Shown here: in pieces, positions 783 to 63,177 of the stretch
Layout: each line of letters opens with the position of its first letter
Numbering within the stretch: the stretch's first letter is position 1
Assembly: GCF_964204865.1 (NCBI RefSeq)
Contig: NC_135250.1
Span: 4,278,001 to 4,342,000, forward strand
Direction: 5' to 3'
Source of the DNA: Styela clava
Taxonomy: Eukaryota; Chordata; Ascidiacea; Stolidobranchia; Styelidae
DNA: 64,000 nt
Program-made: the position numbers and the translations under genes
The notes under the pieces: generated by a model
Seen by the model: the letters and a program-made list of their open reading frames with translations, nothing else
Database searches by the model: none
Told to the model about the DNA's origin: nothing

Positions 783-2622
783 ATGAAGATATTCTTGACT
801 GCATGCTTGTGCTTCATGTTCGTCGCGAGAGGTTCGTATTTCAGCGGTTTTTTAAACTTGTTTTCTTGGCTTTAAATAAAAAATTATGGTACTCCCGTAG
901 TGTGTGTACCAGGTTAGGAATAGGCCATAGTTTTATTAGGCTTTTACGTATTTTAGTTCTATTACGAGTCCGAAGTGAATATCGAAGTGAATTTTTTGTA
1001 ATCTAAAAACCACTCGTTGAATTATTGTTATTTATTTTATCACTTATAATTCAGGTTACGCGATTCAATGCTACACTTGTATTAACTGTCGCGATGCCAA
1101 AAATCTAGTTGCTTCTCAACTCGTGAACTGCTCTAGCTCATTCATGACGTGTCAAAAGACTTCCATAAACGGTGAGTGCTTTATACACCATACACATTGC
1201 TTTAGAACGTTACTGCATGGATCAGTGGTTTTCAACAATTTCATATTCAAATGCTGGACATTTTCGAATACCTGGTGATTACAGAATCGAATCGAATAAT
1301 ATTTTCGAATCGATACTCGAATATATCGAGTGTTCTATTGCAATGGATCCTTCAGACACATAATTTAGTGACGTATTCGATTACTCAGACAGTTCGCCGA
1401 GTGTCCACACACATTGATAAACATGTTTCATTAATAAATCTCTTGGAAAAAAGAGTCGCATTATTTTGCATTTTGAAAATATGACTTGAGTCACTTCGAT
1501 CTTTTTCGAACAAAAAAACAAGATGGCGAAATTTCTATTTAAACCGATTCGAATAATGTATTGTTCGATCGATTCGAAATGCCCATCCCCAGTTTAATTT
1601 GAATAAAATTTTTAGACGTTGTTACACGAACTTGTGGAGTCTCAACTACTACCGGATGCAATAAAGTCACTCTTGCTACTATAACCACGGAAACTTGCAG
1701 CTGCAAAGGGGGTGAGTCATTGTATCATTTTTTATACTTTTATACGCATTTCTCTCCACACAAGGCTCGGTACTCCCGTAGTATGTGTATCAGGTTAGGG
1801 TTAGGCCATAATTTTATTCCGATTTTCCTTATTTTAGTTCTATTACGAGTTCGGGACTGTCTGTGTTAGCCAAGTATATACCCCCTGCCGATAGGTTTCA
1901 GTCCTTTTAAACCAGGGGTCGGCAACCTTTTGTCGCTCGCGGGCCAAATTTAAGGGTTGCAAGTCATTGGCGGGCGCACATATTTTTAGAAAGTAGAAAA
2001 CCGAACGGATGATACTTTTTATAATAAAAATCAATCAGTGATCCATCTCTCGAATAGAATATAGATTTATTTCCTCATTGCAATGCCTCTCAAAAAATTC
2101 CATCTGAATATTTTTGGCGCCATTGAACCCTTTGCACTTAGCATCAACTTTTCTTCGTTTTGGTGCCATTTGTTAAATTATAATCAAATTATAGGCTCAT
2201 TAAACGAGTAATTGTGAATTTTATACTTGTTAGATTATAATACTATTTAGTCTACACTTGTCTCACACTAAATTCTGTTACGGAAAGAATCAAAACAAAT
2301 ATTTTGTAGGTATAATTCAGTGAAGCGTCGCGGGCCGGATTATATTACTTCGCGGGCCCTGGCTGTAGGTTGCCGACCCCTGCTTTACACAATTAGTTAC
2401 TTCCATATTGGTACACACACTTCTGGAGCGATGTATAATGCGGTTCAACTCTCTTTATTCAAACAAACGAAAATAAGTCGATATTTTAAAAACAAAAGTG
2501 TCATCACGTTTGTTAATTTTTTTCAAATTTATTCAGATAAATGCAACGGAGCTGGAACCGTGAAATCGAGCATCATAGTTGGATCCGTTATCAGCCTCCT
2601 TGTTGCTAAATTTCTTCTTTAG
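783..2622 (+). CDS. Ly6/uPAR-like GPI-anchored three-finger protein, copy A1
   Basis: Four exons: 783-831, 1055-1171, 1616-1711 and 2537-2622, joined in phase 1 with GT-AG introns; 348 nt, 115 residues. Exon 1 encodes a signal peptide (MKIFLTACLCFMFVARG). The mature protein starts near YAIQCYTC and has ten cysteines in the pattern CxxCxxC, C, C, C, GC, CxC, ending in KCN, the Ly6/uPAR hallmark. The last residues (SSIIVGSVISLLVAKFLL) form a hydrophobic tail with no basic end, typical of a GPI-attachment signal. Compared with other A copies the Thr-rich stalk is almost absent, so the domain would sit close to the membrane. Likely a small cell-surface protein; ligand unknown. The ATG is the only one in frame before the signal peptide. 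Intron 2 carries a hAT-like MITE and intron 3 a nested MITE. Confidence 0.82.
889..1000 (+). repeat. Fragment of the palindrome-related repeat family
   Basis: Lies in intron 1 of A1. It carries the family's conserved stretch from CTCCCGTAGTGTGTGTACC through TTAGTTCTATTACGAG but lacks the second half, so it is a truncated copy of the elements at 1769, 3544, 8997 and 9919. Confidence 0.6.
1254..1592. mobile_element. hAT-like MITE in intron 2 of A1
   Basis: The stretch begins near CTGGACATTTTCGAATA and ends near GAAATGCCCATCCCCAG, imperfect inverted ends rich in the words TCGAAT and ATTCGAA. Related sequence sits at the same place in intron 2 of A2 (about 6740-6800), so the insertion probably predates the A1/A2 duplication. 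Confidence 0.45.
1769..2430 (+). repeat. ~210-bp interspersed repeat split by a hAT MITE
   Basis: The element starts GGTACTCCCGTAGTATGTG and ends CACACTTCTGGAGCG. Copies without the insert are at 3544-3746, 8997-9203, 9919-10125 and 55191-55399. Here it is interrupted at 1913-2382 by a hAT-like MITE flanked by an imperfect 8-bp target duplication. Confidence 0.7.
1913..2382. mobile_element. hAT-type MITE (CAGGGGTCGGCAACC ends)
   Basis: Terminal inverted repeats CAGGGGTCGGCAACC and GGTTGCCGACCCCTG enclose about 470 bp. The flanking octamers are TTTTAAAC and CTTTACAC; uninterrupted copies of the host repeat read CTTTACAC, so this is an aged 8-bp target duplication as expected for hAT transposition. 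It has no transposase. A second copy is at 62234-62641. Confidence 0.8.
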
Positions 2623-3543
2623 ACAAGAAATAACAAAATTAAATTTAAGTCGATTAAAGTATTGCATATGAATTACATTATAGAATATATAACAAACTTT
2701 TTACTTTTTTTTCGAACAAAGATTAAGATAACCACTCATGCTGCATATTCAAACAATTCTACTTTTTCCAAGAATCCTTGATCTCAGTTGGCATATAGTC
2801 TACTCCAGGGATGGACAAATTATGGCTCGCGGTCTCCCCAAGTATTTTGAGCGGCCCCCTGCTACTACATAAAAACTACCTAAAAAATTTAGTTATCTTA
2901 TATTGATTTCAATTATCTAAACTATGAATTTTTTTGAAATGATATTCATGTTTTTTCGTCACCGGTTTAACAATATCAGTCACCATTAAATTTGACACTA
3001 TCATAGCGAATGGGAATAGTGGATGTGACGTCACGGTCAATTCGTTGTAACGCTGAATCATAATAAGCACTGTGTGACAAACGCCATCTAGTGGAGCTTT
3101 GGCAACGAAACTGAAGACGTTTTTTACTCGCTGTTGACGTAATTTATGAACAAGCTTGGTCATATATGAATTATAGATTATTTGAACGTAGTTGTCTTAT
3201 ACAAATTTCAATACAGGAAACGATGCGTCTCATGTTCGCCATTTTATTTCAAAAGAAAAGAATTGCAATGAGTCCAGATATAGCACCGGGTATGTTTCGG
3301 ATATCCGGCGATATCCGGCTTCATTATTTCAATTATTTGTTTTATTTTTTTTTATTTTGTGTAAACAATATATTGAACAAAAATGCAATATTTATGACGT
3401 CATATTTTATGACTGACGTATTTTATTTCATTTTCGAATAAATTGATATCAATATTCAAAGTGTTCTGGTTTGAAATTTTAGAAACTGGGGTAAAATATT
3501 ACATTAGTAATTTACTTATGAGATTGTATTCTTGCCATTGTCG
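2623..3543 (+). other. 3' flank of A1
   Basis: No exon is seen. The sequence matches the 3' flanks of A2 (7817-8890), B3 (25480-25860), A5 (29680-30761), A7 (40490-41575) and A9 (58630-59588). Shared landmarks are a degenerate hAT end (about 2806-2870), CGCCATCTAGTGGAGCTTTG (3083-3102 here), a block of repeated ATATCCGG words (3275-3325) and TTTATGACGTCATATT. It therefore belongs to the duplicated unit. Confidence 0.6.
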
Positions 3544-3746
3544 TTACTCCTGCAGTATAACTACCAGGTTAAGGTTAGGCCTAGCTATTCCGATTTTCTT
3601 TATTTTAGTTCTATCACGAGTTAGGGGCTGTGTTAGTCAAGCAAATATACACCCTGCTCATAGGTTTCAGTCCCTTTATACAGCTTGATGTAAAGTAGGC
3701 AAACAAAATTAGTTACCTCTATATTGGTACATACACTTCTGGAGCG
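3544..3746 (+). repeat. ~210-bp interspersed repeat
   Basis: An uninterrupted copy of the element at 1769-2430: it begins TACTCCTGCAGTATAACTACC and ends ACACTTCTGGAGCGC. It includes the CCCTTTATACAGCTTGATG segment in which the 1913-2382 MITE inserted in the other copy. Confidence 0.7.
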
Positions 3747-3844
3747 CCGATAACTATTTTTGGACACAAAATGGTACTGTGGAGCGTTTTATTATTATTA
3801 TTATGTTGTTAGTAATTTTCTTGTTGTTGTTGTATTGACAAAAT

Positions 3845-3916
3845 CCGACACTTTTACCAAATATTGTGACGTTGCTGGGATCGCCACCAATTGATTATAT
3901 GTTGTCTCGGACCCAT
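3845..3916 (-). pseudogene. Carboxylesterase exon fragment (relic)
   Basis: The minus strand encodes WVRDNI, then an in-frame TAA, then [15 protein letters not shown]. This matches exon 4 of the intact esterase gene at 14985-15148, where the same place reads [20 protein letters not shown] followed by ESAGG. The nucleophile-elbow motif has changed from GESAG to GKSVG and a stop codon is present, so the piece is dead. Intron-like sequence beside it (about 3917-4015) also resembles the esterase intron at 15149-15240, so genomic DNA rather than a spliced copy was duplicated. Confidence 0.8.
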
Positions 3917-4018
3917 CTGTTGCATAAAAATATATTAAAAGGATTCATTAAAAATTTCAAAGTGAAAAATAACAAAAATTTCAAAATTTTACAAAATTGA
4001 CCGCGAAAGGTTTTTTTT

Positions 4019-6210
4019 ATGCACCGAGTTCAACAATTACTGTCAGTCATGAAAAGTATACAGTATGCTGTGTCATTGCTTCAGGAAATATTATTCAGCA
4101 AAATATGGAGTCAGCTCAAATGTAACAACTGGGTATTTAAAATGCGCAATAAAAAATTTCTTCGCGACATTAATAACGGCGGGAAATTTTTATTCAGTTA
4201 GCCAGATGTGAAATTCATATCTATAAATTTATAGTGACGTTTGATAACGTCGAAGGCGAAATACTCCACGGCAGTTAGGTCATCTTGGGTTTCGTTTTCT
4301 GTTGTTACAACTCCTTACAATATACACCGACATGCGATAAACCTACTTCTGATTATAGTATTAATATTATCTAGTACATTATCGAGTATTCAAACTTTTT
4401 AAGTCAGCCGGAGTGCTAGGTAATGATCTATGAAACAGCCGCGTTATGATCGCTTATGTGAATAAATACAAGCTCACGTATCGCATGATTAAATGTGAAT
4501 ATATTCCACTGCCATTTGCCATAAATTAATGCTTATAAAATTAACATTTCCTTCGCAGGCGTGATGGTTTGTAATCGCAATATGGAAAGTTAATGCGTCG
4601 CGATTTTAGAAAGTTCGGGAGATTTTTAGAAGATTGGCGCGAACCACTGCCTTTGTTTGCAAGATATATCTCAAGTTCATTGGCCCAGCATTCTTTTTGC
4701 TTCCAAATCTTTATTTTCTTGAATCAGGATATTTCCTAAGTAACCATTTAACTTTTATAAACATGAACGTTATTAGGTTGATATTATTGCATGGATACTC
4801 CTGAAGTATGCGTACCAATATGGCGGACACCGGAACGTAGTATATGTGTACCAGGTTAAGGTTAGGCAATAATTTTATTCCAACATTCCTTATTTTAGTT
4901 AAATTACGAATTCGGGGACTATCCAAGTGACTCCCGTAGTATTTGTACCTGAAATTATGGCCTAAACCTAACCTGGGACACATACTGCGTTTCGGTGTCC
5001 GCCATATTGGTACTTCAGGAGCACCATTTCATGTATAACGACATCAGGTAGTAGATGATTGAGTATAATGTGTATTTTTCATTAGGTTTTTGAACCGCTA
5101 TGGGATGGTTGTGTTTAACATCGGTGAAATACCTGCATTTATCTTTATATACAGCAGACATTGTTTTCATAGTTTGTAGTTTTTTTCAAATCTCCAAACC
5201 TTTCGACTGAAAACAAATAGAAATTGTAGCATCATTGTCGCTGAAATTGCGAAAAAAAATTTTGTTATGAAAAAATCCCACACGCACATAGTTAGAATTG
5301 TCTCTCAAATTACAAATCGCAAGAAATTTTTTCCCCCTTGTTGAAAAAATTCTACATTCGCAAAACGCCGAGTTGAAACCGCAAATTTTCCAAAGGATCT
5401 ACGTTATATTTTGTTACATCAATCCTTTCTGCATATGCCATATGTCAGTCCAGGCAACGAGTATTTTCGTTCTTGTTTTGCACCAACATTGCAACATCGC
5501 GATGCTCTCTCATACTATATAACAGCGTTTTGTTCGATTTTTTTTTCGATACTCTTCTAGACTGAGGGAGCGAAAGCAAAAATAATAGACACAACTAAAA
5601 CGTTGTTTCGTTTTGGTCGCAAAAAATACTTCTGAACTTTCTTTGGTAGAAAATAAGACTTCGACTCGGAAATTTTATAAATAAAGTCAGATAATTGATT
5701 TATTTGCCCGATGACAGTAATTTGAAGTATCGTTTAGTAAATCCTTTCCATGGTTGTAGAAATCTAATTACGTAGCGTAACTAATTACAAAAATAATAAA
5801 TACGGTTCTTGCAATCTTTTTAGGATAAAAATTATAGAATTAAAAATCATATTATACGGTTACGAATCTATAGCAAAATGATATAAATGTATCAGCAGTT
5901 AAAAAATTAAAACGTTTAAACAACGTAATACGAATGGAAAAAAGCTCACAGATGAAATACAAATGGCGGCAAAAAGCGCAAGCGATTCCGGTTTTAGGCG
6001 GGGTCGTTGAAATTTGAGACCGCAAACCTGTAATGACGTAACGCCCACGTCACCGGCAACGGTCTACCATTTTATTTCCAATATGAGTAGTTTATGATTT
6101 GATAGCGTATAATAGATTTTGTAGCTTTGGTTTTAATTTTATACTTAATTTTATTTTTAGTATATTTACTTACTTATGGGTTGTTCAAAGGTTTAATTAA
6201 ATTACTGAAA
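4019..6210 (+). other. 5' flank of Ly6-like gene A2
   Basis: No exon is seen. The order of conserved blocks equals that upstream of A5 and A7: the TATAAATTTATAGTGACG block (about 4220), the AGCTCACGTATCGCATGATT block (about 4470), a block ending near CCCAGCATTCTTTTTGC (about 4685), the CATTGCAACATCGCGATGC block (about 5485), and the proximal 150 bp with TTTATGATTTGATAG and TTTTAG. The TATA motif found in A5 and A7 is not recognisable here. A palindromic repeat (4794-5025) has inserted. Confidence 0.5.
4794..5025. repeat. ~235-bp palindromic MITE
   Basis: The two arms are CTGAAGTATGCGTACCAATATG...GGACACCGGAACG and their inverted counterpart ending TTCAGGAGC. The centre contains AATTATGGCCTAAACC-type words. 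Same family as 14661-14895, 17035-17253 and 43526-43760. Confidence 0.7.
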
Positions 6211-7816
6211 ATGAAATTACTGTTGATTGCATGCTTCTGCTACATGCTCGTCAAGACAGGTTCGTATTTCCGCGATTTTTCAATTTTTTTTTTTTCTGGA
6301 TTAAAAATAAAAAACTATTTCGAACAATTTTTTGAAATACACAAACGACTCGTTAACATATTGATATTCATTTATTAAATATTATCCAGGTTACGCGATT
6401 CAATGCTATGCTTGTATTTCCTGCAACGCTTTCGTCATAAACCTTGCTGCTTCACCAATGATGATCTTTTCTAGCTTATTCGCGACTTGTCACACAAGAT
6501 CTGTAAATGGTGAGTGCCTTCATACATCTTACACATTGTTTTTAAAATTTTACTGCATAAACCCGTAGTCTCAACAATTTCATTTTCAAATACTTTTTAT
6601 TTTACTCATAGTTTGCTGATTGTTCACGCACAATAACAAACGTGTCTCGTCAATAAATCACCCACATGTCAGTTTGTATTTACAAAAATATGCTTCAACA
6701 AAAATAAATGACGGATTCACAAAATAGAAACATTTCGAAATTTTTGTCAGAACCCCAATTCGAACAATTTACTGTTCGATTCGAAATGACATCTAGTTTA
6801 ATTTGAACATAATTTTTAGACGTTGTTACACAAACTTGTGGATACCTTACCACTACCGGCTGCAATAGTCATATGCGCACTTGCATTTGCCAAAAGTGTA
6901 AGTCATATTATTTTTTTTATACTTTCAAACGTCATTTTCTCTGTACAAGCGGCCACTGCTAGGTAGTGAGATACATTGGAAGGACTGGAACTTTTTTGCG
7001 CCTCATTTTCTAGCTCGGCGTTGCCCTGTTTATCACACCCAAGGTGGGGTGGTGTACATAGGATTTATACCTGAGATTTTTAAGCGGCGATGGGAAACGT
7101 AATAGTACAACGCTTCCACCATTATGCTTCAGACTCAGTATATAAATTGAATCCTCATCTCTCGCAAACCTACCATGAAATTTTTTATGAGTTTTTTATA
7201 CTTTTCCATCCTGAAAGAGGCTTTTGACAAAGAAGTACTAAGGTACATATTGAAATCGATCGAAAGCATTTGGGTGGGAAGCTACCATTTCAGTTCGGAA
7301 TTGTCAATCAAGTTTATTAGACCTTGCATGGGTGAGGTGGTTTGCATGGGATTTGAACCTGAGATGTTTGGATGCGATGAAAGCAAAATTAACAATTCAA
7401 CTATAATGCTTCAGGTTTATTTTTTTCTTCAACACTGACAATCTTACTATTAAAATCGTTTGAAGGACGAAATCCGATTCTGTATTAAATACTCAATTTA
7501 TTACATCATGCATGGGGGTTGAATCTGTGATCGTCATATCCAAGTAAATAGAAAAATAAAATGTAAATTTAGTAGGTAATAGTTTTTTTTTAAAATCTAT
7601 TCAGATGCATGTAACGGACCCGATACAACCGCTGCAGCAACAACTTTGACCTCTGAACCCACCACCACTCCGATCACTGAACTCATCAAATCTTTGACCT
7701 CTAAACCCACCACCACTCCGATCACTGAACTCATCAAATCAGGCGCTGGAACCATCAAATCAAGCATCATAGTTGGATCCGTTATCAGCCTCCTCGTTGC
7801 TAGGTTTATTGTTTAG
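6211..7816 (+). CDS. Ly6/uPAR-like GPI-anchored protein, copy A2 (divergent)
   Basis: Exons 6211-6259, 6390-6509, 6820-6897 and 7605-7816, all phase 1; 459 nt, 152 residues. Signal peptide MKLLLIACFCYMLVKTG; mature start YAIQCYACISC. Two departures from the family are visible. The fourth family cysteine is missing (MIFSS where other A copies have VNCSS or ECSNS), leaving nine cysteines. The third finger is shortened to GCNSHMRTCIC, about nine residues shorter than A5. The C-terminal ACNGP motif is kept. Exon 4 then encodes a Thr/Pro-rich stalk with two tandem 16-residue units (LTS.PTTTPITELIKS) and the GPI-type tail SIIVGSVISLLVARFIV. The frame is open throughout, so it may be functional with an altered fold. 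The start is the only ATG preceding the hydrophobic segment. Confidence 0.78.
7645..7740 (+). repeat. 48-bp coding tandem repeat in A2 stalk
   Basis: Two units of 48 bp beginning TTTGACCTCTGAACCCACC and TTTGACCTCTAAACCCACC differ by one base. In frame they encode 16 residues with SEPTTTPITELIK (SKPTTTPITELIK in the second copy). A single related unit is present in A5. Confidence 0.85.
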
Positions 7817-9663: not shown

Positions 9664-19065
<9,402 letters not shown>

Positions 19066-22840: not shown

Positions 22841-22859
22841 AACCCATTTTTCAATACAT

Positions 22860-45518: not shown

Positions 45519-45534
45519 GGCCTTTCTATAGGCC
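45519..45534 (-). promoter_or_regulatory. TATA-like motif of the A7 flank
   Basis: The minus strand reads GGCCTATAGAAAGGCC, one base changed from the A5 motif GGCCTATAAAAAGGCC; about 570 nt before the ATG. Confidence 0.4.
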
Positions 45535-46180: not shown

Positions 46181-46430
46181 ATGCATTTTGGCGATACCAG
46201 TGTCATCAGAAGTAGGAAAGCGCTTATTTAATGCGGCCGGATTGTAGTTGAATGCAAAAACAGATGTTACGCGCTTTTGTTATAAACTCTGTGAACATCA
46301 AATTTGCATGTAACATGTAAATTAAGGAAATGATTCAGGAATTATCCGGATTAACTGCATTATTAGAAACAGTCGATGAACAGAAAATTGATAATTTGAT
46401 GAATGAGCAGAGTGACTCAGAACTAGACAA
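46181..46430 (+). pseudogene. hAT transposase C-terminal relic, second copy
   Basis: Contains the paralogue of 33856-34100: IPVSSEVGKRLFNA, with the conserved E-R changed to G-K, so it is more decayed. Part of the duplicated A flank. Confidence 0.55.
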
Positions 46431-46584
46431 TACTTCTTAAATTTAAAGTTAAAGAATTCAATAAAATTTTGCATGTCTTCTTCTACATGCAGTCTTATTT
46501 AGTAGACACTAAACCTAAATTTTTCTAAATTCAGTAGTTTTTATTGAATTTTATTCCTATGGGAATCCCATAGGATGGGACAGG

Positions 46585-48639: not shown

Positions 48640-49271
48640 GACAGGCATAAATTACTAAAAGATGGTATGAGACAGATAGTTATGTCCTATGGACAAGCAC
48701 TCCGCAGTGGGTTCCCAGGTGTGCACTGAAGCATTCTGAATTGATAAAAAGGCAATTGTATTGAGTTTGATTCAATATAGCATTTAATATTTAGAATGTA
48801 AATTATTTTGTTTTTCCATATCGGCATTTTATAAACTGACACTATTTTGTCAAATATTCTCGACGTCTTTTAACTGGCATTTCTCGCTCGACGTTGTTCT
48901 CCGAATTTATAATTCTTTGCGTAAATTGAGAAATCATAAAAGCAGAAATCTTCAAATATTGCTCACACAAACGAAATCATACCACCGACGTTATCTCTCC
49001 CCTGACAAGGCAAATGAGTCAATTGTCACAGTTTGAGAATTTTCTTGCTCCCTTAAAACAAATATTTTCATTCAGGAAGTTTGCTTCAAGCGAAGTCGCT
49101 AGACTTCAACTAAGCTAGCGTTTCCCAACCGAAGAGAAACTATTTGTAACTTATCAAAAGAGTTATGTATTTGTAGGACCGTTTTCACTGGTAAACGCCA
49201 TTTTCTGGATATTCAAATACAATTATATTCAAGTTAGGAATTCAACCGTAGTTTCGCATCTCAAAAACTTA

Positions 49272-49295
49272 GGGGGGGGGGGGGGGGGGGGGGGG
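49272..49295 (+). repeat. Poly-G run of 24
   Basis: An uninterrupted run of 24 G on the plus strand, followed by TGTTT. A 15-nt G run is at 61155-61169. Confidence 0.8.
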
Positions 49296-49646
49296 TGTTT
49301 ACCGCCTACAGCGTAGAGTGCGGATAAGTGATAGAAGAAAACTTGAAAGTCTCATTAAATGCTAAACCACCCAAAACTACCGCAATACCCTTCATGTTTA
49401 TGTGAGGACAGTTATTGTAATAAAAAATTTTATTTGGTCAAAATCACAATGAGAATGCAATAAATAAATAAGCAAAATTGCACAAACATAATTTACAGAA
49501 AATTTTACTAAAGTGCATTGTTGTGCGGGGAGTTTGAGGAAATTGAATACACACAATCATATGGCCACCAAGACCTCTAATAAGATTCATATATTTATTC
49601 ATGTCGCTTATTAACCTTGCATGGCAAATTAACCTAGGCTTGCGGG

Positions 49647-50443
49647 TAGGGATATACGTTTCAGAATTTCAAATCGATTCGAAGAAATTTAAGAAAAAAT
49701 GCTTGATTCTATTCAGAAAGAAAAATAGATACCACAAGGCAACTGCACGACACAGCAGCGCTACCGTTATATCGACCGAAAGCGTTTATTATCCTTGCGT
49801 TTACAGCTTTCCAAAGCCGTGACACTCCCAGAGTCGTTATATTTCATATTGGTAGCAGCTTTCGAGGGACCAATGGTTTCGCTCAATTTTGTTCGACTAC
49901 TTAAAATGTTACAAAGTTTCACAAATATTTGGAACGTTCCTTCAAATTATCTACATAATAATATTATAATAAAACATCATTGCTTCATACCGTATGCCTG
50001 CGATGCTTGCCTCGTTATCATTGGTTCTTTTAAAATCATGGCGCATACGGTATACTAACTATAGCGATTATAATTTGGATGAATTTTGAAGGTCAATTTT
50101 AGAAGAAACAATCGCTATAAATCCGATATTATTTGCAAACATAATTGTATGTGAGTAAATATGTAACTGAGTATAGCTTTATGTAATAAAAAATAAATCT
50201 TAGCCGTAATATATTTGGTAGTTGATACATCCATGCAGTGTGTTTTTCTGGTAACTTTCTTAATTCTTCAAGCTCATTATTGTTATTTTATCAAAATTTA
50301 TACTATATTTCTTCCAAATTTGAGAAAAGTTGACGATAATATGATGATATACTAAATAGAATCAGATTCGGAAATATTCGAATCGAAACATTGTGATTCG
50401 AAATTCGATTCGAAAAAAAATATTCGGAACTTACATCCCTACT
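49647..50443. mobile_element. ~800-bp MITE with TAGGGAT...ATCCCTA ends
   Basis: Ends TAGGGATATACGTTTCAGAAT and ATTCGGAACTTACATCCCTA, with TCGATTCGAAG / ATTCGATTCGAA inside; the same flavour as the MITE in A1 intron 2. Confidence 0.55.
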
Positions 50444-51162
50444 TGTTGGAAGTGCTGATCATCTCTGATTATTTAAACGTTTGATTGTCGCCCATATACT
50501 GGAGCGTAGCCATTAATTCTCATGGGGCTTAGACCGTAACAGACAGCGGGAAAACGTGGATTTCCAAGAGATTTAAGGATCCAAAATGCGTTTCAAGGAG
50601 AATGAGAATAAAAGGACACCCCTGCCCCCAGCACAAAAAAAAAATAAAATAAGGATAAATTAGGCCCGAGTATTATTTCTCGCAAAAAAATGAAATAATT
50701 GTCTTATTTTCGGAGACAGAGTACATGGACGAGGTGGCGGGCATCGAATTTGTACACGAGGTGTGTACCTGCTATATATACCAGATGTGGGCAAGGTTTT
50801 TGAAAAAGTGGGCCAAAAATTTTGCCCGCTTGGATTTACGGGCCGCGTAAGTGTGACGTAAAGAGTTACATTTTATGAAAAATATTTACAGTGTTGCGAA
50901 AGAAAAAGTAGGAAACAATAAATTCGAGATAAAACTCAATTTAATCGCAATCTCAACAAATTCCTTGAGCTGTTTTTCATTTGAAACATCAAAATTTAAT
51001 TTTAGTTTGTGGTTGTGGCAGCATCAGGCGGGACAGATTGAATTACCCAATCACGCGGGCCGAAGTTTGCACATGTCAGCGCTACCATTATAGTCAAACC
51101 TGAGGCATACGATTCATAAAAGTTCTGTTCGTCACTATTCAAATTTCTCGATAATATAGGCA

Positions 51163-51170
51163 TATAAATA
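51163..51170 (+). promoter_or_regulatory. TATA box upstream of the orphan secreted gene
   Basis: TATAAATA, 28 nt before the TTG at 51198 and well placed for transcription starting at about 51190. Whether it is used depends on whether 51198-51320 is a first exon or part of it is internal. Confidence 0.35.
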
Positions 51171-51197
51171 TCACGTCCTTGTTACTGCCATATTTTC

Positions 51198-52157
51198 TTG
51201 CACATCTTCGACGTTATCCTCATTTTTACCTTTATTTTTTCTTTGAAGATACCGTTCGCTCAATTTGGCTTCTACTGCTGTTATGTGAGGTGGAGGGGCC
51301 GGCAAGACCCAGAATGCAAGGTACGAATATTAGTCCGTTCCAGAGACCGTATCCAACGACACACACGAATACCTGAATTATAGAAAATTGACTTTGCTAT
51401 TATAGTATTAATAGTAAACGTTTTAAGCGAGTCGACTGCTAAATGGTAAATGTTTTAACAAGTTTTGAAGCAATCTATAGACCAGGGTTGTGGATTCGGT
51501 TTTTGAAATGTTGACATTCTGAACTGAACTTGAAATCCCAACAATTTTAAATAGCACCGTAAAATCAATAAGAAAAACAAGAGAACTATGCTCAAATATA
51601 TGGACACGTAGAGCCACATAATTTTGATGACGTCATAGCGAAAAAAAGAAATAGCTTCCTGGAGAAAAAATTTTATCTTTAACGACTGAAAATTTCAAAG
51701 CAATTGCTCCAGTATTCGACGAGTAAAAGTAACAACCTTCTGGCGACCTCTTCCGTTATTGGGTACTGGAAACTTATATCAATAGATCCATAGGTTGCAG
51801 AGAAAAGCTATTTTCCCAAATAACAATAATCAAGACAAAACATTAGTACATTTCGTGCACAATATGAAAAATATTTTTAAATAATTGTATGATTATTTTT
51901 AACAGTTAAATTACGCTGGTCGAGAAATTGATTGTGAAGTGGATTGGAAGTTTAAAAGTTTTAGACTGACGTGGGATGCAAAATGTCGGGACAAATTAAA
52001 CCCATCAATTATGCATTTGTGTGGAGGGTATAACAGCGATGTTGGAGCCTGTGAAGCTTCCTTTTCGTTTTTGATCCAATATGGCTCCGATATTGGAGTT
52101 TATCCAACTCCGTGTGATCGTGGCAACTTTGTTAAGTCTTGTGTTCCCCCTCCGTAA
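51198..52157 (+). CDS. Unrecognised cysteine-rich secreted protein (two exons, start codon unclear)
   Basis: Exon 51198-51320 ends at a GTACGA donor; exon 51906-52157 starts after TTTTTAACAG and ends in TAA. Both junctions are phase 0, and the joined frame is 41 + 83 codons. The first exon would encode a hydrophobic segment (HIFDVILIFTFIFSLKIPFA) resembling a signal peptide, then FYCCYVRWRGRQDPECK. The second encodes YAGREIDCEVDWK, KCRDKLNPSIMHLCGGY, SDVGACEASFSFLI, VYPTPCDRG and SCVPPP: ten cysteines after the hydrophobic part, an even number suiting a secreted disulfide-bonded protein. The frame opens at TTG, not ATG. Either the ATG was lost, or the pyrimidine tract is really a 3' splice site (ending GAAG at 51248) and the exon is 51249-51320 with the start upstream. 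I do not recognise the family. Confidence 0.5.
51590..51800 (+). repeat. Interspersed repeat with TGACGTCATAGC core
   Basis: ACTATGCTCAAATATATGG, GATGACGTCATAGCG, GAAATAGCTTCCTGG and TTTCAAAGCAATTGC match 27020-27290. It lies in the intron of the orphan secreted gene. Confidence 0.6.
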
Positions 52158-53430
52158 AAAAATTGATTCAAGTCCATTTTGTGTGTTTTGAGAGCGATAA
52201 GTTGATTTTTTTTTTCGTTTATTTTTTTTTTATGTATTTTAAAATGAATGACTAGAGCAATGTATTTCTTGAGAAAATATAATTTGAAACCTCATTCATC
52301 CTTTCTCTTTCACCAGAGGCGAACTTATTTTTCATGAGGCGCCCTCAAAAAATACTCAAAGCGCACTTACACGAAAAAAAATTACTGCCTTCAAATAACA
52401 CTGAATTTTGTGATCTCTTTAATGTATACATCATGCCATTTGAAGTTTGAAAACACGTTGGCCCAAAGACTGTCAACTATTCTTCCTCACCTTTGCCTGA
52501 TTTTCCACTCGCTACCCTCGTTAGGGCAGATAAATTAACTCCAGCTCACGAAAGTCCGGCCTTATTTTGTGAACCCTGTCCTACATTAAACCTAAGAGTA
52601 CTGTAAAATTCCAAATAACAAATATCTCTCTATCTGTGCGTTCATTCTATTATTGTGCTGAAAACTCGAATGTTTTATTGAAATTTGCTTTTTTTAGATG
52701 CATTCAATTTATTTTTCTCTCAATTTTATCTAAATTCCAAAAGTCAATAACACAATCGGATCTACACGACAAAAAATTACGTTCTTCATATCAATTTCGA
52801 TAAACATCGACAGCGATGTTCTATAGCTTTGGCCCATTATGACCGTCATTATCGGCTTTGTTTATTTCCTATTTATTAAGCTTTATTTTTTATTTTCACA
52901 CGTTATCATATGATATTTCATAAATAAAAAACGTACTAAAATAAAATAGCAGTTTCTTACATACCAATATCAGTTTGTACAGAGGGTTATATGTACGAAA
53001 AGACGTAATGAGACAGAAAAAAAGCAAAATCACCAGCGAATTACTGTTGTCCACGGGTGTACGATATTATATATTATTTGTCGGTTGGCCATACAACCAA
53101 CTTCACACATCTGACTAGATTCCACAGAAAATTAAGTTTTTGCAATGTACGCAACAAGTTATAATTATAAAATTCCGCATCAACAAAATACATTACCGAA
53201 TAGGGCCACAGTAAATGGCTTGGGAGAGACGGGTCGCGGCCCAGGGCCACATGTTGCACAAATGCGAACTGTAGGACAATACATATATATACCTAGATCA
53301 GAAGAGTATTGACGACAGCACAATAAATTAGGAAATTTATTTTTTCCTTGACTGACTTCGATTTACGAATTTACTCCAAGTTAAATGCTTTGAAAAACAG
53401 TTGGGCGACAAGAGGAAAGGCCGACATTAG
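52158..53430. other. Intergenic, nothing recognised
   Basis: AT-rich sequence with no convincing exon. An AATAAAAAAC near 52922 could serve as a distant poly(A) signal for the orphan secreted gene, but a closer signal was not seen. Confidence 0.4.
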
Positions 53431-53549
53431 GGCGCTCCAGAAGTGCGTGTACCAATATGGAGGTAACTAATTTCGTTCGCCTACTTTACGTCAAGTTGCG
53501 TAAAGAACTGAAACCTATGAGCAGAAGGTATATTTATTTGTCTAGTTTA
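53431..53549 (-). repeat. Partial ~210-bp interspersed repeat
   Basis: Begins GGCGCTCCAGAAGTGCGTG, then TACCAATATGGAGGTAAC and TTTCGTTCGCCTACTTTACG; the far half is missing. Confidence 0.6.
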
Positions 53550-54150
53550 GGGGAAAGTGGAGAAGGTTGGGACACTTTTTTCTTTTGCATATTTTGAGCC
53601 GTTACCTCTGCATATTCACTTAAGTTTGCGAGACTAATGCATAGAGGGGTAAATGTAGTTTTTATTCAGCAACAAAGAAATTCCTTTGCGACACACATCT
53701 TACTACCAAAATGCTTTGGAATACGTCTGTCAAGTGTCCCACTGTACCCCACTTGTGGGGCCTATTCGGACAGAATAGTCTGTCGAAATTCAACGAAGTA
53801 TGCCCTTAAAAATAAGCAATTAATCAGCATAATCGTCTAAAGAACAGGGAGACTTCAAATTTGAAGATTTAATATTTTTAAAATCAATGTTCAACTGAAA
53901 TACTTCAGATATTTTGGCAAAAAATTTTGCAAACAAATTTGATTATTTCCTTCCTCGAATCTAAATCTGGAAATATTATTGAATCTCGAATATATTCCAT
54001 TTTGGACCATGGGTCGAAAAAAAACCATAATATTACACAAAATATAACGCATCTCTAGGTCTCTAAGGACTTATTGTATCAAACACTGTCGAATTGTGCC
54101 CGGTAGGGCATGTCCCACTAAACCCCGGTCCATTGTCCCCCATAGGAAAC
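53550..54150. mobile_element. MITE-like element with GGGGAAAGTGGAG / CATTGTCCCCC ends
   Basis: Left end TTAGGGGAAAGTGGAGAAGG with TTGGGACACTTTTT; right end CATGTCCCACTAAACCCCGG with TCCATTGTCCCCCATAG. Inside is AGTGTCCCACTGTACCCC. The ends are roughly inverted. No coding potential seen. Confidence 0.45.
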
Positions 54151-55190
54151 AAATATTTTTAGACCATCCCACGGCGGAATTCGGAAGGCACATCCACTCG
54201 CCAACGTTATGAATATTTTACAATGCACTATAGCTGATAAATATCTGACGGTGGTTTGTCATGTTGAAAAGGCTAAAGTAGAAAAAGAAAAAAAATGGGA
54301 TGGTGAAATTTTAGTTTCAACCTCCCAAAACCAATTTCACCCCATATTTCGCGCCGCTCTACCCGTTCGCGGGGACGTTGTAACTCACCAAAGGTCGGAT
54401 CGAAACATCGAACCGTGGACAGGATTGCGGATATAGTATCAGTGGGAAAGCTGATTTTGAATAGAACTAAAATAAGGAAAGTGGGAATAACATTATGGCA
54501 AACCCTAAACTGATACACATACTTCAGGACCGACATAAGAACCCCGATTTGGCTTAAATTGCAAAAGCGCAAGATACCGAGACAAATAAACCAATTATTT
54601 AGGTTCAGCTTAGGACGAAAATTGGTTAACAATCACCATATCTAAATAGGTAGGCTACAAATCGAGCGGGTTACCCGGTAACTCAGTATGTTCCATGGAT
54701 TTTTATTTTAAGGAAGGGGTTGGGAGCAAATTTGCTGATATGTATTCTTGTTATTAATGATAGAAGTATTTGTAACTTATAAAAATGTGTTGACTTATCA
54801 TCTTCACCGGCATATAAGTTACTTTTTGAATTCAATTTTATTTACGTTAAGAAATAAGGTCAAGTGTCACACCTGAAAATTAATGGAGGGAGAGTGTAAA
54901 TCAATGCCCGGTGTTAATATCAAAACGGCAATCAAAAATATATCATAAACAAAAATCATTACTATTTGGAAAATACAAAAAATCGATGTCACTTAAAGTT
55001 TCAATACCTTTGGTGTAAGAAGTCAATATCGATTTTAAGTAAGTTTATAATCATTGCCATAATAAACGAAAAACACGACTGCTATCGCTTCAGCGAAGTT
55101 TGTATTTTAAGTAAATCCTACGTGTATTATCGTGACCCACTAATGCAAGGCCCTTTATAAGCAGCATCTGATATCTAGCGGTATGTAATG
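54151..55190. other. Intergenic, repeat fragments only
   Basis: Contains a minus-orientation fragment of the interspersed repeat family (about 54460-54535: TAGAACTAAAATAAGGAAAG ... CTGATACACATACTTCAGG). A minus-strand open stretch over 54273-54632 runs through this repeat and is not credible as a gene. Confidence 0.4.
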
Positions 55191-55399
55191 GATACTTCCG
55201 TAGTATGTGCACCAGTTTAGGGTTAGGCCATAATTTGATTCTGATTTCCCGTGTTTTAGTTTTATTACGAGTTTGGGGACTGTCTGTATTAGCAAAGTGA
55301 ATATACCCACTGACCATAGGTTTCAATCCCTCTACCTACACAACGTAAAGTAGGCGAGCTCAAATTGTTTCCTTATTGGTATATACACGGCTGGAGCGT
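55191..55399 (+). repeat. ~210-bp interspersed repeat
   Basis: Starts GGATACTTCCGTAGTATGTG and ends TATACACGGCTGGAGCG; same family as 3544-3746. Confidence 0.65.
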
Positions 55400-55483
55400 C
55401 ATCTAATGAGCTACTATCATTTGATAGGATCGGAATCATTCTCAAAAAATTACCTAATGAACACAATCTCGGGTGTGTCTAAA

Positions 55484-57126: not shown

Positions 57127-58259
57127 TCCGAGTGATTTTCTTAATTAAAACAACGAAAGTTAACTTGACAAATAAAGTATCAACACCAAAAGTAGGTGCT
57201 GTCTTCTTGCTAGCAAGTAGGTCTGTAGGTCTGTAGGTCAAGTAGGTCTGTCTTCTTGCTAGCAAGGCACCGCCTATAATAACTCTAAAATATATAACGG
57301 ACTTCTACAGTATATAGTTTTTTATTCTGATTCACTCTTCCGTTTGTATATACTATTGAAAAAATCAAAAATTTTGGTGCGACTACTTGTAGAGTTTCGT
57401 CAGATCGTAAATGCAAAATACCTCATGAAAGAAGTATTACGTCCATGCGAATAAAATCGACTTGGATAAAATTAGATATGCGAACGGTGTAAATGCTTCC
57501 GTGATCATAAGTTATTACAACTCAGCAAAATTGTACATTTCACTTAATCATGTGAACTATATTTTTATACAGTCATAACGCCTTAGCATTGAATAAGGTA
57601 ATTAACGAATCAGTAACAAAATAGCACTGTAACGGAAATACATAATATTATGATAATTTATACTTTATCTGGTACTTTACTTCAGATTAAGCTGCATGAA
57701 ATACATTAAACCATAGTTTCATTAATTAAATCACCGTGTGACGACGCAATATAGTAACCTTTCTGTTTTTCAAAATCATCTCTTACTTTTAATAAAATTC
57801 AGTTTCAGTTGAACCATGTAGTTCAATTAGTATTGAAAAATAAAAAACGTTTAATTTACTTGCCTGTTGCAGAAATAACTCGAAATAGGCCGTGTTGAAG
57901 GACGAGTCAAATGTCGTCAATACTTGATTTAATCCTATTGCAAATTTCAAAATAACGTTGTATGGTTTGGAAAAATATTTAATCTTATTGTCATCACACT
58001 CATATTTATCCATTTCACAGTTGTTTATGAAATCAACTATGATTCGATCATCAACTCGAATTGGAATCTGGGAATTCAGTGACTCGACTTGACTTCAAAT
58101 CGAATTTTGAAATTGCTGCATATAAGAATTGATTCAAAACTGATGGGTATAATATTTATCATGACTCGTACTCTAATTGTGACTCAATTCTGTCCAAATT
58201 TTTTGAACTCGGTTGACTTATTACTCGGACAAAATCGCATCAAGCAAAACGTCGAACTT

Positions 58260-58560
58260 ATTGGACACGTTTTAGTGGCCATAATGATCGTTTCAAAATT
58301 TTGTTGTTATTGTTATTATTGTTATTTGTCTCCGTCTCCATTTTTAAAAAATCGCTTTTCTCTTCGAATACTGGACCAATTGCTTTGATATTTTCAGTGG
58401 TTAAATATGAAATTTTTCTCCAGAAGGCTTTTTACTTTTACTTTTATTTTTTTTCCTTTTTACTTTATTACTTTTTTCTCTCGCTATGACGTCATCAAAA
58501 TTATTGTCACTGGGTGGCGCCACGTGTCCATATATTTGAGCATAGCTCTCTTGTATTTTA
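58260..58560 (-). repeat. Interspersed repeat with TGACGTCAT core, minus orientation
   Basis: Contains CTGGACCAATTGCTTTGATA, GCTATGACGTCATCAAAATT and CGTGTCCATATATTTGAGC, the inverse of 27020-27290 and 51590-51800. Confidence 0.6.
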
Positions 58561-59233
58561 TATCCTTCCTTGTCACTTCGTTCACCGGGTCCCTTTATCA
58601 CTTATTCTCTTTTAAATTCTTCTAGAAAGCTCAGCATAGAGATAGATTTGAATATTGAAAACAATTTATTTCACAATGTAATAATATACCTCAGTCATAA
58701 AATATGACGTCATAAATAGTGAATTTTTGTTCAATATATTTTTTACACGAAATAAGAAAAATGAAACATAAAATTGAGACAATGAAACCGGATATCCAAA
58801 AATACTCGGTTCTATATCCGGACCAAAAGCTTTGTTCCACAAAGAAAGAATAGCTATATCCGGACTCTTTGCAATACTTTTCTTTTGAAACAAATCGGTG
58901 AAACATTAGTTTCAACGTTGCACTAATTTGGTTGAGACAAGTAATTTATATTCAATTTATCTATCGTTCATGTGTAACCAATCATGATCATAAAATAAGT
59001 CAACAACAGACAAACGTTTCAGTTTCTTTTCCAAAGCTCCACTAAATGACGTTTGTCACAAAGTTCTTATTATATTCAGTATTTTTTGAAGCATTTCCTT
59101 ATAACATGTCAAACCCAATAAACCAATTAGACAATTTTTGAAGATTAACAAATTATAAAAAAGAAAACTGCGAGTGACGCAAAAAATGCCCCATGCACCT
59201 CGTCAGGACGTAATGAATTAGGTAGTTGTGTAG

Positions 59234-59514
59234 GCTAGGGGTGGACAAAGTTTTTTTTTTTGCAAGGCCCGCATGGAGAAGTTGAATGTGACGCCACAGC
59301 CACTGTGTTTGCATTCGCTTCGAATTTAATGGTGGCTGAAATGGTTGAGTCAAAGACGAAAAAATATCGATATTCATTTTTAACAATACACAGTTTAGGT
59401 TTTTCAAATAAAATTTGTATGTAGTTGTCAAAAATTTTCACAATTGTTTCCAGGAGCACGGGGCTCGCGCGAAATGCTTAGCGGCCCGCGCGCCCCAGTT
59501 TGCCCATTTCTAGG
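59234..59514. mobile_element. hAT-like MITE in the A9 3' spacer
   Basis: From GCTAGGGGTGGACAAAGTTTT to CCCCAGTTTGCCCATTTCTAG, with GCGGCCCGCGCGCC inside; positional equivalent of 30336-30609 and 41147-41399. Confidence 0.6.
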
Positions 59515-59588
59515 GTGGACTACAAGTCAAAAAAAATATTCGGGCCTTGAAAAAATTGGTTTTATTGAAAATGTGAATTAGTGCTTAT

Positions 59589-62500
59589 CTAACGCTTTGT
59601 TTTGAAAAAAAAGTGAAATTTTGAAAAGTTGAAATTTGAAAATTTGCGATAAAATCTATAATCGGAACCATATGTAATACTTACAATCGACTCAGTTTTG
59701 TTATTTTCTGTATAAATTATAATACATTTAGCAACGAGAAGGCTGATAACGGATCCAACTATTTTGCTTGATTTGATGGTTCCAGCGCCTGATGTGGTGG
59801 GTTCAGAGGTCAAAGTGGTGGGTTCATTGGTGCCAAATTCTACGAATCCAGCGTTTGATGTGATTAGTTCAGCGATCGAAGTGATTAGTTCAGTAATCGA
59901 AGTGGTTGGTTCATTGGTCGAAGTGGTTGGTTCATTGGTCGAAGTGGTGGGTTCATTGGTCGAAGTGGTGGGTCCATTGGTCGAAGTGGTGGGTTCATTG
60001 GTCGAAGTGGTTGGTTCATTGGTCGAAGTGGTTGGTTCATTGGTCGAAGTTGTTATTGCAACGGTTGGAGAGTTGGTATCGAGTCCGTTACATCCATCTT
60101 AATAAATTTAAAAAAAAAACTATTCACTCCTGAATTTACATTTAATCTTTTTACTTATTTGAATAGGAAGATCGCAGATTCAACCCTATGCATTATGCAG
60201 GGAAAGGTAGGGCTGTAGCCATTCCTAGTATCGAATCGAATCGAAGAAAGTATCGAATTACGAGATTTCCAAATATACTTACTCACTTTTTATTTTAAAT
60301 ATCTGCTAGATATAGATTATCATTCATTTGGAACGCGTATGTGTCTTGCTATCGAATAGTTAAAAAAAAATTGCGCTATCGACTAAAAAGGGGGGTCCTA
60401 TATTGAATTCATTTTAAAAATCCAGGCTAGATCTTATTTTCGGGGAAATACGGTATGTACAATTGATATCCACTTGGTTTTTATGTCTGCATTTCAATTT
60501 TCCTATTATTAAGTCTCAATGAAATATTTCAGACATTCAAAATCGGAAAAATGACATTTTGATACATTATTCTGCCAAACCTTCAATTTCATTTTAAAAG
60601 ACTTAATCTTGCTACTAGCTTCAAAAATATCACATCCTTTCCTCTCGATAATTTTACCTGATTTGTGTTTTTAAACATGATTTGTGATTTTGAATATGGC
60701 TCTTAGATGAGACAATTTTACAAGTCGAAAGATATCTTGAAAACTAGCAACCATCGAAAGTTTTTCCTGGGTTAGAAGCATATCGTGTGTACCTTACAAC
60801 ATTCGGCACGGTACACCCCTGGTACACCCTATCGTCGTGGTACACCCTTCAAACTTTTAGGTACTTCCTGGGGTGTACTATACACCCGGTTGATGAGCAC
60901 TGTTTTAGACTCCCCCAACTTTCTCTCTTGTAAATTCCTGCCTACGACCCAGTAAGTAAGTATCATAATAGTAATAAATAACTAAACAAAATTAGTAATA
61001 CAACAGACAAATAAAAGGCAAGATTCTTCTCTAAAAACGACAAAATTCGTCTATGGGAAGAAGGTCGCCCTAATAGGTATGTTTTTCATCGCACCCCCTA
61101 AACTCGGGTTCAAATCAAAGATCCACCAATGGTTATAATAAACTGGGTAGACTAGGGGGGGGGGGGGGGACCCCTGGCACGTGTGCCCATTTATTCGGCA
61201 CGCGAGCGAGGCCTCAGAAATGAGATCATTCTCTTTCAGATAAAAAGTTTCGAGGCTCTGATTTATCTGATGAAACTCGGTGTTTGTTCATTCTTATCGT
61301 TTGTTAACAATCTGTTATTCATTTAAAATTTTAAACTCTTTTTGTCTTTTCAAGACATATGGCTACAGAGAAATAGATATGACGTAACAGCTGAGTTAGC
61401 TCTTGACGAATTGTGACGACACACAGCATTCATTGGAGGTTCATTGCTACGTAATATATAGTTCGTCTGTGCCACCATTTTTCTTCATTTCTGATTGATT
61501 TATGAAGTTGTACAGCTCATGTAGGTTAGAGTAACTTGTTAACTTACTGAAATAAATTGATTTCGAAAGAAATATAACCAGTAGTTCGTATATTTCTTTG
61601 AAAGTTACAAAATATAATCCCAATGTAAATCTCTATCAACTGTAATGCAGCAGCAGAAGTCTCACTTATATAGAATAAGAAAAGTAATCAAATCTATTTG
61701 TCGGGCTGATATTTTCCCGAATAGTGAATCTGTCTGTAGCTTACATGTTTAGAAGGTTTATTATTGTGTATTTTTGCTTTAAAAGTAACAAAGCACTGTT
61801 TTTAATTTTGGTCGGCACGCGGAAGAATTCTGTCGTTAAATTTAGCCGATTTGGGCACGCGAGCCGAAAAAGGTTGCCCACCCCTGGGGTAGACAATGTC
61901 GAACCGAAGACGTTTCAGTCCTTCCAATTATATACTAGTTTCCTGCCTAGCAGTGGCTACCTCTACAGATCCTTGTGTGGGAAGAAATGCGTAAAAAAGA
62001 ATGCAAAAGTAATACTTACCCCCTTCGCAAACGCAAACTTCAAAGTTGAGAGATCCGTTAGTGACTGTATTGCAGCCAGTCGTTAAATTGTGGTCGCCAC
62101 ATGTTCGCACAACATACCCTGTAATTAAGGTTTCAAACTAAACAATCAAAGTATCCAAATGAAATTAAACGCAACAGACATTAAATCAACTTAGAGAGTC
62201 ATAGGAACAGAAGCTCTGAAGGTCTATGTAGACCAGGGGTCGGCAAACTTTTGTCGTTCGCGGCCCAAAATTAAAGGTTGCAAGTCATTGGCGGGCCGCA
62301 CATATTCGAAGGAATGGCCAATAAATCACATTTTTCAATCAGATTTCAGTTATATTTTAAGCAGTGCGCGAAGAATGATTCTTTTGAACTTTTTCTGCGC
62401 TATTAAACCATTTGCACTCAGCATCAACTTTTTTACGTTCTGTTGCCTTTTGTCTAATTATAATCAATTTATAGGCTCATTTAACGAGTGATTTTGAATT

Positions 62501-63177
62501 ATATACTTGTTAGGTTATTTAGTGTTTCAAAACAAATTCTGTTACGTATAGAATATAATTGTCAATACAGTTGTTTTGTTATTATAATCCAGTGAAGCGT
62601 GGCGGGCCGGATTATATTGTTCCGTAGTTTGCCGAGCCCTGATCTAGACAGAAGCCGGTGGAAAATCCAAATGCGGTATGTTATGTATGCCGTTTAGATT
62701 GACAATTAAACTGGGTTCTGAGTTTTATTATTGGACATATTGAATTAGACATATGTATCGTTTTCCTATCGTTGTTTTGTGAAAAAAGACATTCGTGCTT
62801 GTGTTTTGTTACCATAATTTTAATTTGATTTTAGGAAACTGTCGGTTAATCTGTTGAGACTTTCAAACGGAATGTGTATGATGTGTACTTACCACGTGTA
62901 GTATTCGTCTGACAAGTTGAGTTAGAGCATTGAATGAGTTGAGAAGCATTGAGCTTTTTGTTATCGCCGCAGTTCTGACACTGGTAGCACATAACCGCGT
63001 ACCCTGGATTACAAAAAATAAAATGAATAAAAAGCAGTGAACGATTTGTTTGCAGAACACTTGGTTTATTTTAACATGAAAACTTAATTACAGAATTATT
63101 CATGACCAAACAAGATAATTTTACGAACCTGTCGCGAAGAACATGTAGCACAAGCATGCAATCAAGAATAATTTCAT
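59589..63177 (-). CDS. Ly6/uPAR-like protein, copy A9, with repeat stalk and lost stop codon
   Basis: Exons 63177-63129, 63003-62893, 62118-62020 and 60097-59589, phase 1; 768 nt, 255 residues, the longest copy. Signal peptide MKLFLIACLCYMFFATG; domain start YAVMCYQCQNCGDNKKLN; ten cysteines ending VCVCEGDGCNG. Exon 4 encodes a long stalk with seven TSTNEPT heptads (one TSTNGPT) and two divergent TSI(T/A)ELI units, a likely mucin-type spacer. The hydrophobic tail (KIVGSVISLLVAKCIII) is followed not by the family TAG but by TAT (59712-59714). The frame continues for 41 residues from that codon (YTENNKTESIVSITYG ... FKTKR) to a stop at 59589. A hydrophilic extension should block normal GPI processing and might give a single-pass membrane form. 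All splice sites are GT-AG. The long introns hold hAT-like MITEs. Confidence 0.8.
59870..60050 (-). repeat. 21-bp coding minisatellite in the A9 stalk
   Basis: Nine units of 21 bp in frame. On the minus strand seven read ACTTCGACCAATGAACC(A/C)ACC or nearly so, followed by two diverged units. They code for heptads rich in Thr, Ser, Pro and Asn. Arrays with such similar units tend to vary in length between alleles. Confidence 0.9.
60105..61150. other. Proximal part of A9 intron 3
   Basis: No exon. A TCGAATCGAATCGAAG motif near 60232 resembles the interior of the A1 intron MITE. Direct GGTACACCC words occur around 60810-60850. Confidence 0.4.
61151..61886. mobile_element. hAT-like MITE with G-run at its left end (A9 intron 3)
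   Basis: The right end CGAGCCGAAAAAGGTTGCCC with ACCCCTGG and the left CCCCTGGCACGTGTGCCC carry matching GGCACGCGAG words on both sides (61198 and 61854). The outer flanks GTAGACTA and GTAGACAA suggest an 8-bp target duplication. The left end carries a 15-nt G run. Confidence 0.5.
62234..62641. mobile_element. hAT-type MITE (CAGGGGTCGGCAAAC ends)
   Basis: Same family as 1913-2382: left CAGGGGTCGGCAAACTTTTG, right AGTTTGCCGAGCCCTG. Flanking octamers ATGTAGAC and ATCTAGAC differ at one base, a clear 8-bp target duplication. In intron 2 of A9. Confidence 0.8.

Follow-up and report, generated by a model that had tools for sequence, protein, structure and literature searches.

The window analyzed here, a 64-kb stretch (C1:4278001-4342000) of a genome whose gene content suggests an animal, contains a cluster of cysteine-rich protein genes in two subfamilies, A and B. 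We consider it probable that this cluster is a birth-and-death array of glycosylphosphatidylinositol (GPI)-anchored recognition proteins of the Ly6/three-finger type, the recognition function being predicted from the sequence. Its ten copies are five A genes, three B genes of full length, and the B relics B4 and Bx; they share one exon plan and lie among spacers of two recurring classes. Codons of a positively selected class were found in the predicted three-finger domain.

Gene models

Eight copies were modeled as four exons with splice sites (A1, A2, A5, A7, A9, B3, B6 and B8). Exon 1 was 49 nt long in all eight, exon 2 was 111-120 nt and exon 3 was 78-102 nt; because exons 2 and 3 are multiples of three following the 49-nt exon 1, all introns are in phase 1. 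Cysteines 1-5 are encoded by exon 2 and cysteines 6-9 by exon 3, while exon 4 encodes the tenth cysteine, a stalk and a hydrophobic tail. The Thr/Ser-rich stalk was very variable in length, from none in A1 to 8.5 copies of a 21-nt repeat in A9. As read from the alignment, A1, A5, A7, A9, B3 and B8 have all ten cysteines in LU-domain order ending in Cys-Asn, A2 has nine, and B6 has a stop at the sixth; this order fits that given for the ten-cysteine LU domain in PMC4839075.

Matches to exon profiles with E < 0.1 all fell within the eight models and the relics B4 and Bx, ten in total, in agreement with the preliminary description, which had counted ten members or relics on a single exon plan (exon 1 is shortened in Bx). 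A few profile rows elsewhere at E 0.1-1 were disregarded when counting members. The 30 kb on either side held no further clear member, and two weak partial matches there (E 0.0075 and 0.012) were left uncounted. The copies are as follows.

783..2622, plus strand: A1; exons 783-831, 1055-1171, 1616-1711, 2537-2622; 115 aa, without a Thr/Ser stalk; match to the Pfam profile QVR at E 0.001
6211..7816, plus strand: A2; exons 6211-6259, 6390-6509, 6820-6897, 7605-7816; open frame without the fourth Ly6 cysteine; 48-nt stalk repeat duplicated
23578..25441, plus strand: B3; exons 23578-23626, 23967-24083, 24689-24784, 25269-25441; TT at the exon-3 donor; A-type 3' flank
26650..26924, plus strand: B4 relic (exon profiles); exon 1 at 26650-26698 and the last part of exon 2
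28636..28677, minus strand: Bx relic (exon profiles); shortened exon 1 only
30762..32469, minus strand: A5; exons 32469-32421, 32266-32156, 31738-31637, 30925-30762; intact, 141 aa
36516..38278, minus strand: B6; exons 38278-38230, 38059-37943, 37274-37179, 36706-36516; TGA in place of the sixth cysteine codon; exon 3 followed by a GC donor
41576..44948, minus strand: A7; exons 44948-44900, 44417-44301, 43326-43225, 41721-41576; intact, 137 aa
55484..57126, minus strand: B8; exons 57126-57078, 56919-56803, 55828-55733, 55611-55484; intact, 129 aa; no visible defect, unlike every other B in the window
59589..63177, minus strand: A9; exons 63177-63129, 63003-62893, 62118-62020, exon 4 starting at 60097; stalk long (TTSTNEP); the usual stop is lost and the frame continues to 59589

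Only A1, A5, A7 and B8 look normal in every respect; the other 6 of the 10 copies depart from the plan, with assembly error possible for the defects. B3 is probably dead, because its exon-3 donor is TT instead of GT, and B6 is probably dead as well. A 418-bp sequence that covers the last part of B6 intron 2 and runs into the first bases of exon 3 (37270-37687) recurs upstream of B6 (38570-38987) at 99.3% identity, suggesting a very recent rearrangement.

A-B units and their spacers

On the minus strand the copies run A9-B8-A7-B6-A5-Bx, in the alternating order described earlier, and the coordinates likewise place A1, A2, B3 and B4 on the plus strand, opposite to the other six. Strict alternation would arise by chance in 2 of the 20 possible orders of three A and three B, so the evidence for a repeated unit is carried by the spacers and not by the alternation. 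When spacers were compared on the same strand at E<=1e-8, related spacers fell into two classes, in support of the unit model and of the shared A-B spacer blocks that the preliminary description had proposed. Spacers of the A>B class (A9>B8, A7>B6, A5>Bx and B3>B4) covered each other over 0.29-1.00 of their length at 71-83% identity. Those of the B>A class (B8>A7 and B6>A5) did so over 0.19 and 0.50 at 87% identity, and none of the eight cross-class pairs matched. The intervals, assigned by spacer comparison except where stated, are as follows.

57127..59700, minus strand: A>B-class spacer of unit A9-B8
38279..41575, minus strand: A>B-class spacer of unit A7-B6
28678..30761, minus strand: A>B-class spacer of unit A5-Bx
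25442..26649, plus strand: A>B-class spacer following a B gene, B3>B4
44949..55483, minus strand: B>A-class spacer from B8 to A7; 45246-46421 matches 32925-34101 at 93%
32470..36515, minus strand: B>A-class spacer from B6 to A5
2623..6210, plus strand: A1-A2 spacer with pieces of both classes; no B exon found by exon profiles
26925..28635, plus strand: junction of the two arms, plus (B4) and minus (Bx), from exon profiles and spacer comparison

The A1>A2 spacer resembles the A>B class over 0.11-0.23 of its length and the B>A class over 0.20-0.27; because it mixes pieces of both classes, A1-A2 looks like an A-B-A unit that has lost its B. The 15.8-kb A2>B3 spacer has matches, near its two ends, to 0.42-0.59 of each A>B-class spacer, together with a slight overlap with B8>A7 (0.05). 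Between these end matches lie exon pieces of a carboxylesterase gene on the minus strand (10618-17615; Pfam COesterase, best E 1.4e-9), and A2-B3 looks like a unit split by this gene. B3 is probably a B head joined to an A-type 3' flank, because the B3>B4 spacer falls in the A>B class although B3 is a B gene. The earlier statement that the flanks are well kept was true in part: the 150 bp adjacent to the A genes differ by 0.24 (upstream) and 0.29 (downstream) between A copies, close to the 0.31 and 0.35 of exons 2 and 3, whereas selected spacer pieces are closer, at up to 93% identity.

Selection on the domain

Counting estimates of omega, the ratio of nonsynonymous to synonymous divergence (dN/dS), were 0.97 for the pooled domain of the five A genes and 1.10 for that of A1, A5, A7 and A9, whereas exon 1 and the anchor of the five A genes gave 0.41 and 0.45. 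The three minus-strand A pairs reached 2.08, 1.87 and 1.81, with dN<=dS in fractions of 0.023, 0.017 and 0.07 of the bootstraps, uncorrected for the number of pairs, and B pairs ranged from 0.84 to 1.21.

Maximum-likelihood site models M1a and M2a were compared using in-house code, which gave the same M0 omega (1.35) as IQ-TREE. Twice the log-likelihood difference (2dlnL) was 24.2 for the five A genes without gap columns (27.8 on another tree) and 42.6-48.6 for four A genes over all three trees. Exon 2 alone gave 11.35, exon 3 alone 38.5 and 38.3, and the three B genes 13.35, while signal plus anchor gave 0 and no positive class. In null simulations of the four A genes with a different tree per exon, the largest of 64 values was 8.45, compared with the observed 42.58. 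One-tree nulls reached at most 7.12 for B (0 of 34 at the observed value) and 6.19 for exon 2 of A (0 of 31). Omega of the positive class in A was 3.5-13. Sites with an M2a posterior >=0.9, placed by the cysteine alignment with gap columns included, fell between cysteines 1 and 5 (5 sites), 5 and 6 (5), 6 and 7 (3), and 7 and 8 (4), and after cysteine 8 (3). Adding S23, a copy outside the cluster, to A still gave 50.0; in the tests with outside copies added (65-68 codons) and in their tree, the A2, A7 and B3 rows were shortened and fewer columns were used.

These results support diversifying selection on the domain and not on signal and anchor. The earlier picture of diverse domains with a steady signal peptide and anchor was confirmed by both counting and site models, and its idea of rapid evolution held when exons were compared: omega is about 1 or above in the domain, with a well-supported selected class, and about 0.4-0.5 in signal and anchor.

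It is unlikely that the array is simply decaying, its redundant domains drifting under relaxed constraint with omega near 1 and no driving partner. The dead or relic copies B3, B6, B4 and Bx, the cysteine missing from A2, the stop lost from A9 and a pooled counting omega near 1 are all consistent with such decay, but the A genes require the class with omega 3.5-13, also exon by exon, and M1a, which allows omega of 1, is rejected beyond all nulls. Moreover, six copies keep all ten cysteines (A1, A5, A7, A9, B3 and B8), and signal and anchor are constrained.

Segment exchange between paralogues is a further concern for the selection result. A pairwise homoplasy index (PHI) test of the five A copies gave 0.001 (0 of 1000 shuffles reached) at three settings with 170 informative sites, and nearest neighbors changed with the block, being A5-A9 in the exon-2 block (0.164) and A2-A5 in the exon-4 block (0.131). 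By these measures, the A copies are mosaics. A recent A-B anchor swap within the cluster is not claimed, because the tree of the exon-4 end still groups B3, B6 and B8 (0.92). We regard it as improbable that the selection signal is an artefact of this exchange combined with the alignment of loops of unequal length: each exon alone remained significant with gap columns removed, the spacings between cysteines 5 and 6 and between 7 and 8 are 12 residues each in A1, A5, A7 and A9, and the two-tree nulls, whose breakpoints were placed between exons and none inside, did not exceed 8.45.

Identity of the proteins

Seven window proteins were scanned against Pfam (B6 was left out and A9 was taken only up to residue 115), and six matched QVR (PF17064, 'Quiver family u-PAR/Ly-6-like domain') at E 1.1e-4 to 9.2e-3; A2 had no Pfam match at E<=1. 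The matches covered almost all of the profile, starting at position 1 or 2 and running to 86 of 86, both in these six and in all five proteins scanned from relatives outside the window (S26 was left out). QVR was the best profile for all six matching window proteins and for four of the five relatives, S25 scoring better with CD59. As a control, none of nine shuffled domains matched QVR, with two weak unrelated matches (E 0.19 and 0.25), compared with E 2.8e-5 for the unshuffled A5 domain. A hydrophobic start and a hydrophobic C-terminal tail were recognized by eye in all eight full models, the tail being extended in A9. Two SET-domain chains found in the PDB with a 7-row profile (E 0.06-0.08) were rejected as chance matches.

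In genome searches, which covered 376.6 Mb in 379 contigs, PF00021 listed two other places (L001 and L002) and QVR one place on contig C9; the cluster, whose domain is split over exons, was absent from both lists. The C9 stretch (L035, C9:6669671-6669928) is the only one in the genome listed above the QVR cut-off, at 28.4 bits, and is perhaps a true Quiver relative.

The preference for QVR would suit neural proteins or channel modulators of the Quiver/Sleepless or Lynx kind, a reading to which we give little probability: the array proteins match QVR below its cut-off while the separate C9 stretch passes it, and rapid diversification with gene death would be unexpected for a conserved modulator. 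Secreted toxin-like or glandular effectors are very improbable even though venom three-finger exon segments change faster than introns and are exchanged, according to PMC2474615, because all eight full copies retain the hydrophobic C-terminal tail (A9 running past the usual stop), which makes a tethered protein more likely than a secreted toxin.

Relatives elsewhere and the anchor exon

Relatives of the A7 and B8 proteins were found at eight places at least: three on C1 (3.90, 4.79 and 7.14 Mb), two on C6 that lie 11 kb from each other, and one each on C3, C10 and C18. The exon plan is common to the complete models S21, S23, S25, S26 and S27, and to S22, whose first exon was not found in 2.7 kb of upstream sequence; the C3 and C18 genes were seen in exons 1-2 only. 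Among the best candidates scored, a probe of the A promoter and exon 1 detected only the five A genes and S23 (C1), and the corresponding B probe the five B copies and S27 (C10). Because each lineage has one further copy outside, A and B probably predate the cluster. The tree is consistent with this, grouping A with S23 (0.93) and B with S27 (0.98), yet it places S27 inside B at only 0.51. S25 and S26, a recent pair on C6, are identical in exon 1 and differ at 19/204 positions in exons 2-3 versus 19/547 in introns 1-2 (p 0.0023).

We compared synonymous divergence of the domain and the anchor among A1, A5, A7, B8, S22, S23, S25 and S27, leaving out S21 pairs; the anchor figures rest on only 15-17 sites. 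Domain and anchor values were 0.66 versus 0.06 for S23-S27, 0.81 versus 0.13 for S22-S27, 0.85 versus 0.13 for A7-S22 and 0.71 versus 0.13 for A7-S27, so that in distant copies the synonymous sites of the domain are near saturation and those of the anchor often are not. Exceptions were S25 pairs (0.47-0.64 in the anchor) and B8 pairs (0.24-0.47), and close pairs showed little contrast (A5-S23, 0.18 versus 0.22; B8-S27, 0.35 versus 0.31). In the ten pairs inspected, likeness dropped to the background level close to the anchor-exon boundaries, and in A1-S23 it extended about 20 nt past them. An 89-base anchor probe listed nine places, all of them anchor exons of members, with A1, S23, S25 and S26 not among the matches listed. 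A new observation here is that for several pairs of distant copies, some of them on different chromosomes, synonymous divergence is far lower in the anchor exon than in the domain. This could reflect either exchange confined to the one stretch that is still similar or constraint at the nucleotide level. A tentative and rather doubtful extension is that the genes consist of two modules, finger exons driven apart and an anchor exon kept alike by exchange across chromosomes, giving diverse recognition proteins on one shared anchor, possibly at a locus of self/non-self or gamete recognition.

Other features

Four copies of a ~215-bp element (4796-5010, 14680-14895, 17040-17253 and 43547-43760) are 85-89% identical and have inverted ends by eye, resembling a small non-autonomous transposon. 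About three 184-bp units form a tandem array at 19936-20506. To the right of the cluster, long frames on the minus strand (L006-L008, window positions ~66600-79700) show a likeness, judged by eye, to a tetraspanin loop and to a membrane protein of the patched type. Neither tRNA prediction with bacterial settings nor Rfam at the gathering threshold gave a match in the window. A repeat fragment had no match in phage records, and in viral contigs the pattern had no match and none of 29 candidate stretches contained relatives of the proteins.

Discussion

Several observations weigh against an array of Ly6-type recognition proteins under diversifying selection. All Pfam scores lie below the curated cut-offs (17.4-26.4 versus 27.3 bits for QVR, 13-18.8 versus 33.9 for CD59), PF00021 gave nothing at E<=1 for window proteins or relatives, and the PDB sequence search returned no credible relative, with no match for A7 and only the rejected SET-domain chains for the 7-row profile. 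Pooled counting omega in A is only 0.97-1.10; A1 pairs stand at 0.57-0.79, and A2 with A5, A7 and A9 at 0.78, 0.78 and 1.18. Adding S27 to B weakens the signal to p 0.03, and the probable death of B3 and B6 drives omega towards 1. For the dispersed copies the tree was saturated and no positive class emerged (2dlnL 0.77); for S21, S22, S23 and S25, M0 omega was 0.14 at a tree length of 25.8, a value that we did not use as proof of constraint. In S25/S26, synonymous sites are raised too (5/44 versus 15/169 nonsynonymous), so the contrast between exons and introns in this pair fits exchange better than selection.

We nevertheless favor the birth-and-death array. In this scenario, A and B would be two old lineages that became neighbors; the pair would then have multiplied as a unit, part of the array would have turned round, by inversion or inverted duplication, and copies would have been lost or damaged. 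A working protein would be secreted, folded into three fingers with five disulfides and tethered by GPI, in some cases on a Thr/Ser-rich stalk, and its finger loops would meet a changing partner, making diversification pay. Recognition of microbes, other individuals or gametes fits this predicted role best.

Venoms, salamander reproduction and mammalian clusters have already provided examples of fast-evolving three-finger families. The present family is of this ordinary kind in an unusually readable state, combining A-B unit duplication, mosaic copies and diversifying selection on the domain. It adds another animal example, one where duplication of units, exchange of segments, gene death and diversifying selection are all legible within 64 kb, and where the anchor exon acts unlike the finger exons. 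We recognized no report on an array of this kind in the literature covered; that coverage was incomplete, and absence cannot be concluded.

Among known systems, Quiver/Sleepless is the one whose profile is matched near full length, but neither the array proteins nor their relatives reach the QVR cut-off; moreover, the array is tandem and fast-evolving, and S25 is closer to CD59. In snake three-finger toxins, exons II and III contain segments that change faster than intron segments and are exchanged (accelerated segment switch in exons, ASSET), as described in PMC2474615. Those are venom proteins, whereas here 8 of 8 full copies have an anchor-like tail and are more likely to be tethered than secreted without a membrane anchor, and the anchor exon is kept as the least diverged part between several distant copies. 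The salamander PMF and SPF three-finger families arose by repeated duplication with positive selection and recombination between families, according to PMC8904931; they are pheromone and sperm proteins of known tissue, whereas the anchor-like tail is kept here. Mammalian Ly6/uPAR clusters (such as those of human 8q24 and mouse chromosome 15) have the signal peptide in the first exon, a ten-cysteine domain, a GPI anchor in the last exon and variable fingertips, as stated in PMC4839075. The present array shares with them the clustering, the ten cysteines and, by prediction, the first-exon signal, the last-exon anchor and the variable fingertips. It differs in that a typical mammalian Ly6 gene has three exons and the genes here have four, the last of which is a separate exon for the tenth cysteine, stalk and anchor, and in that the repeated unit is an A-B pair.

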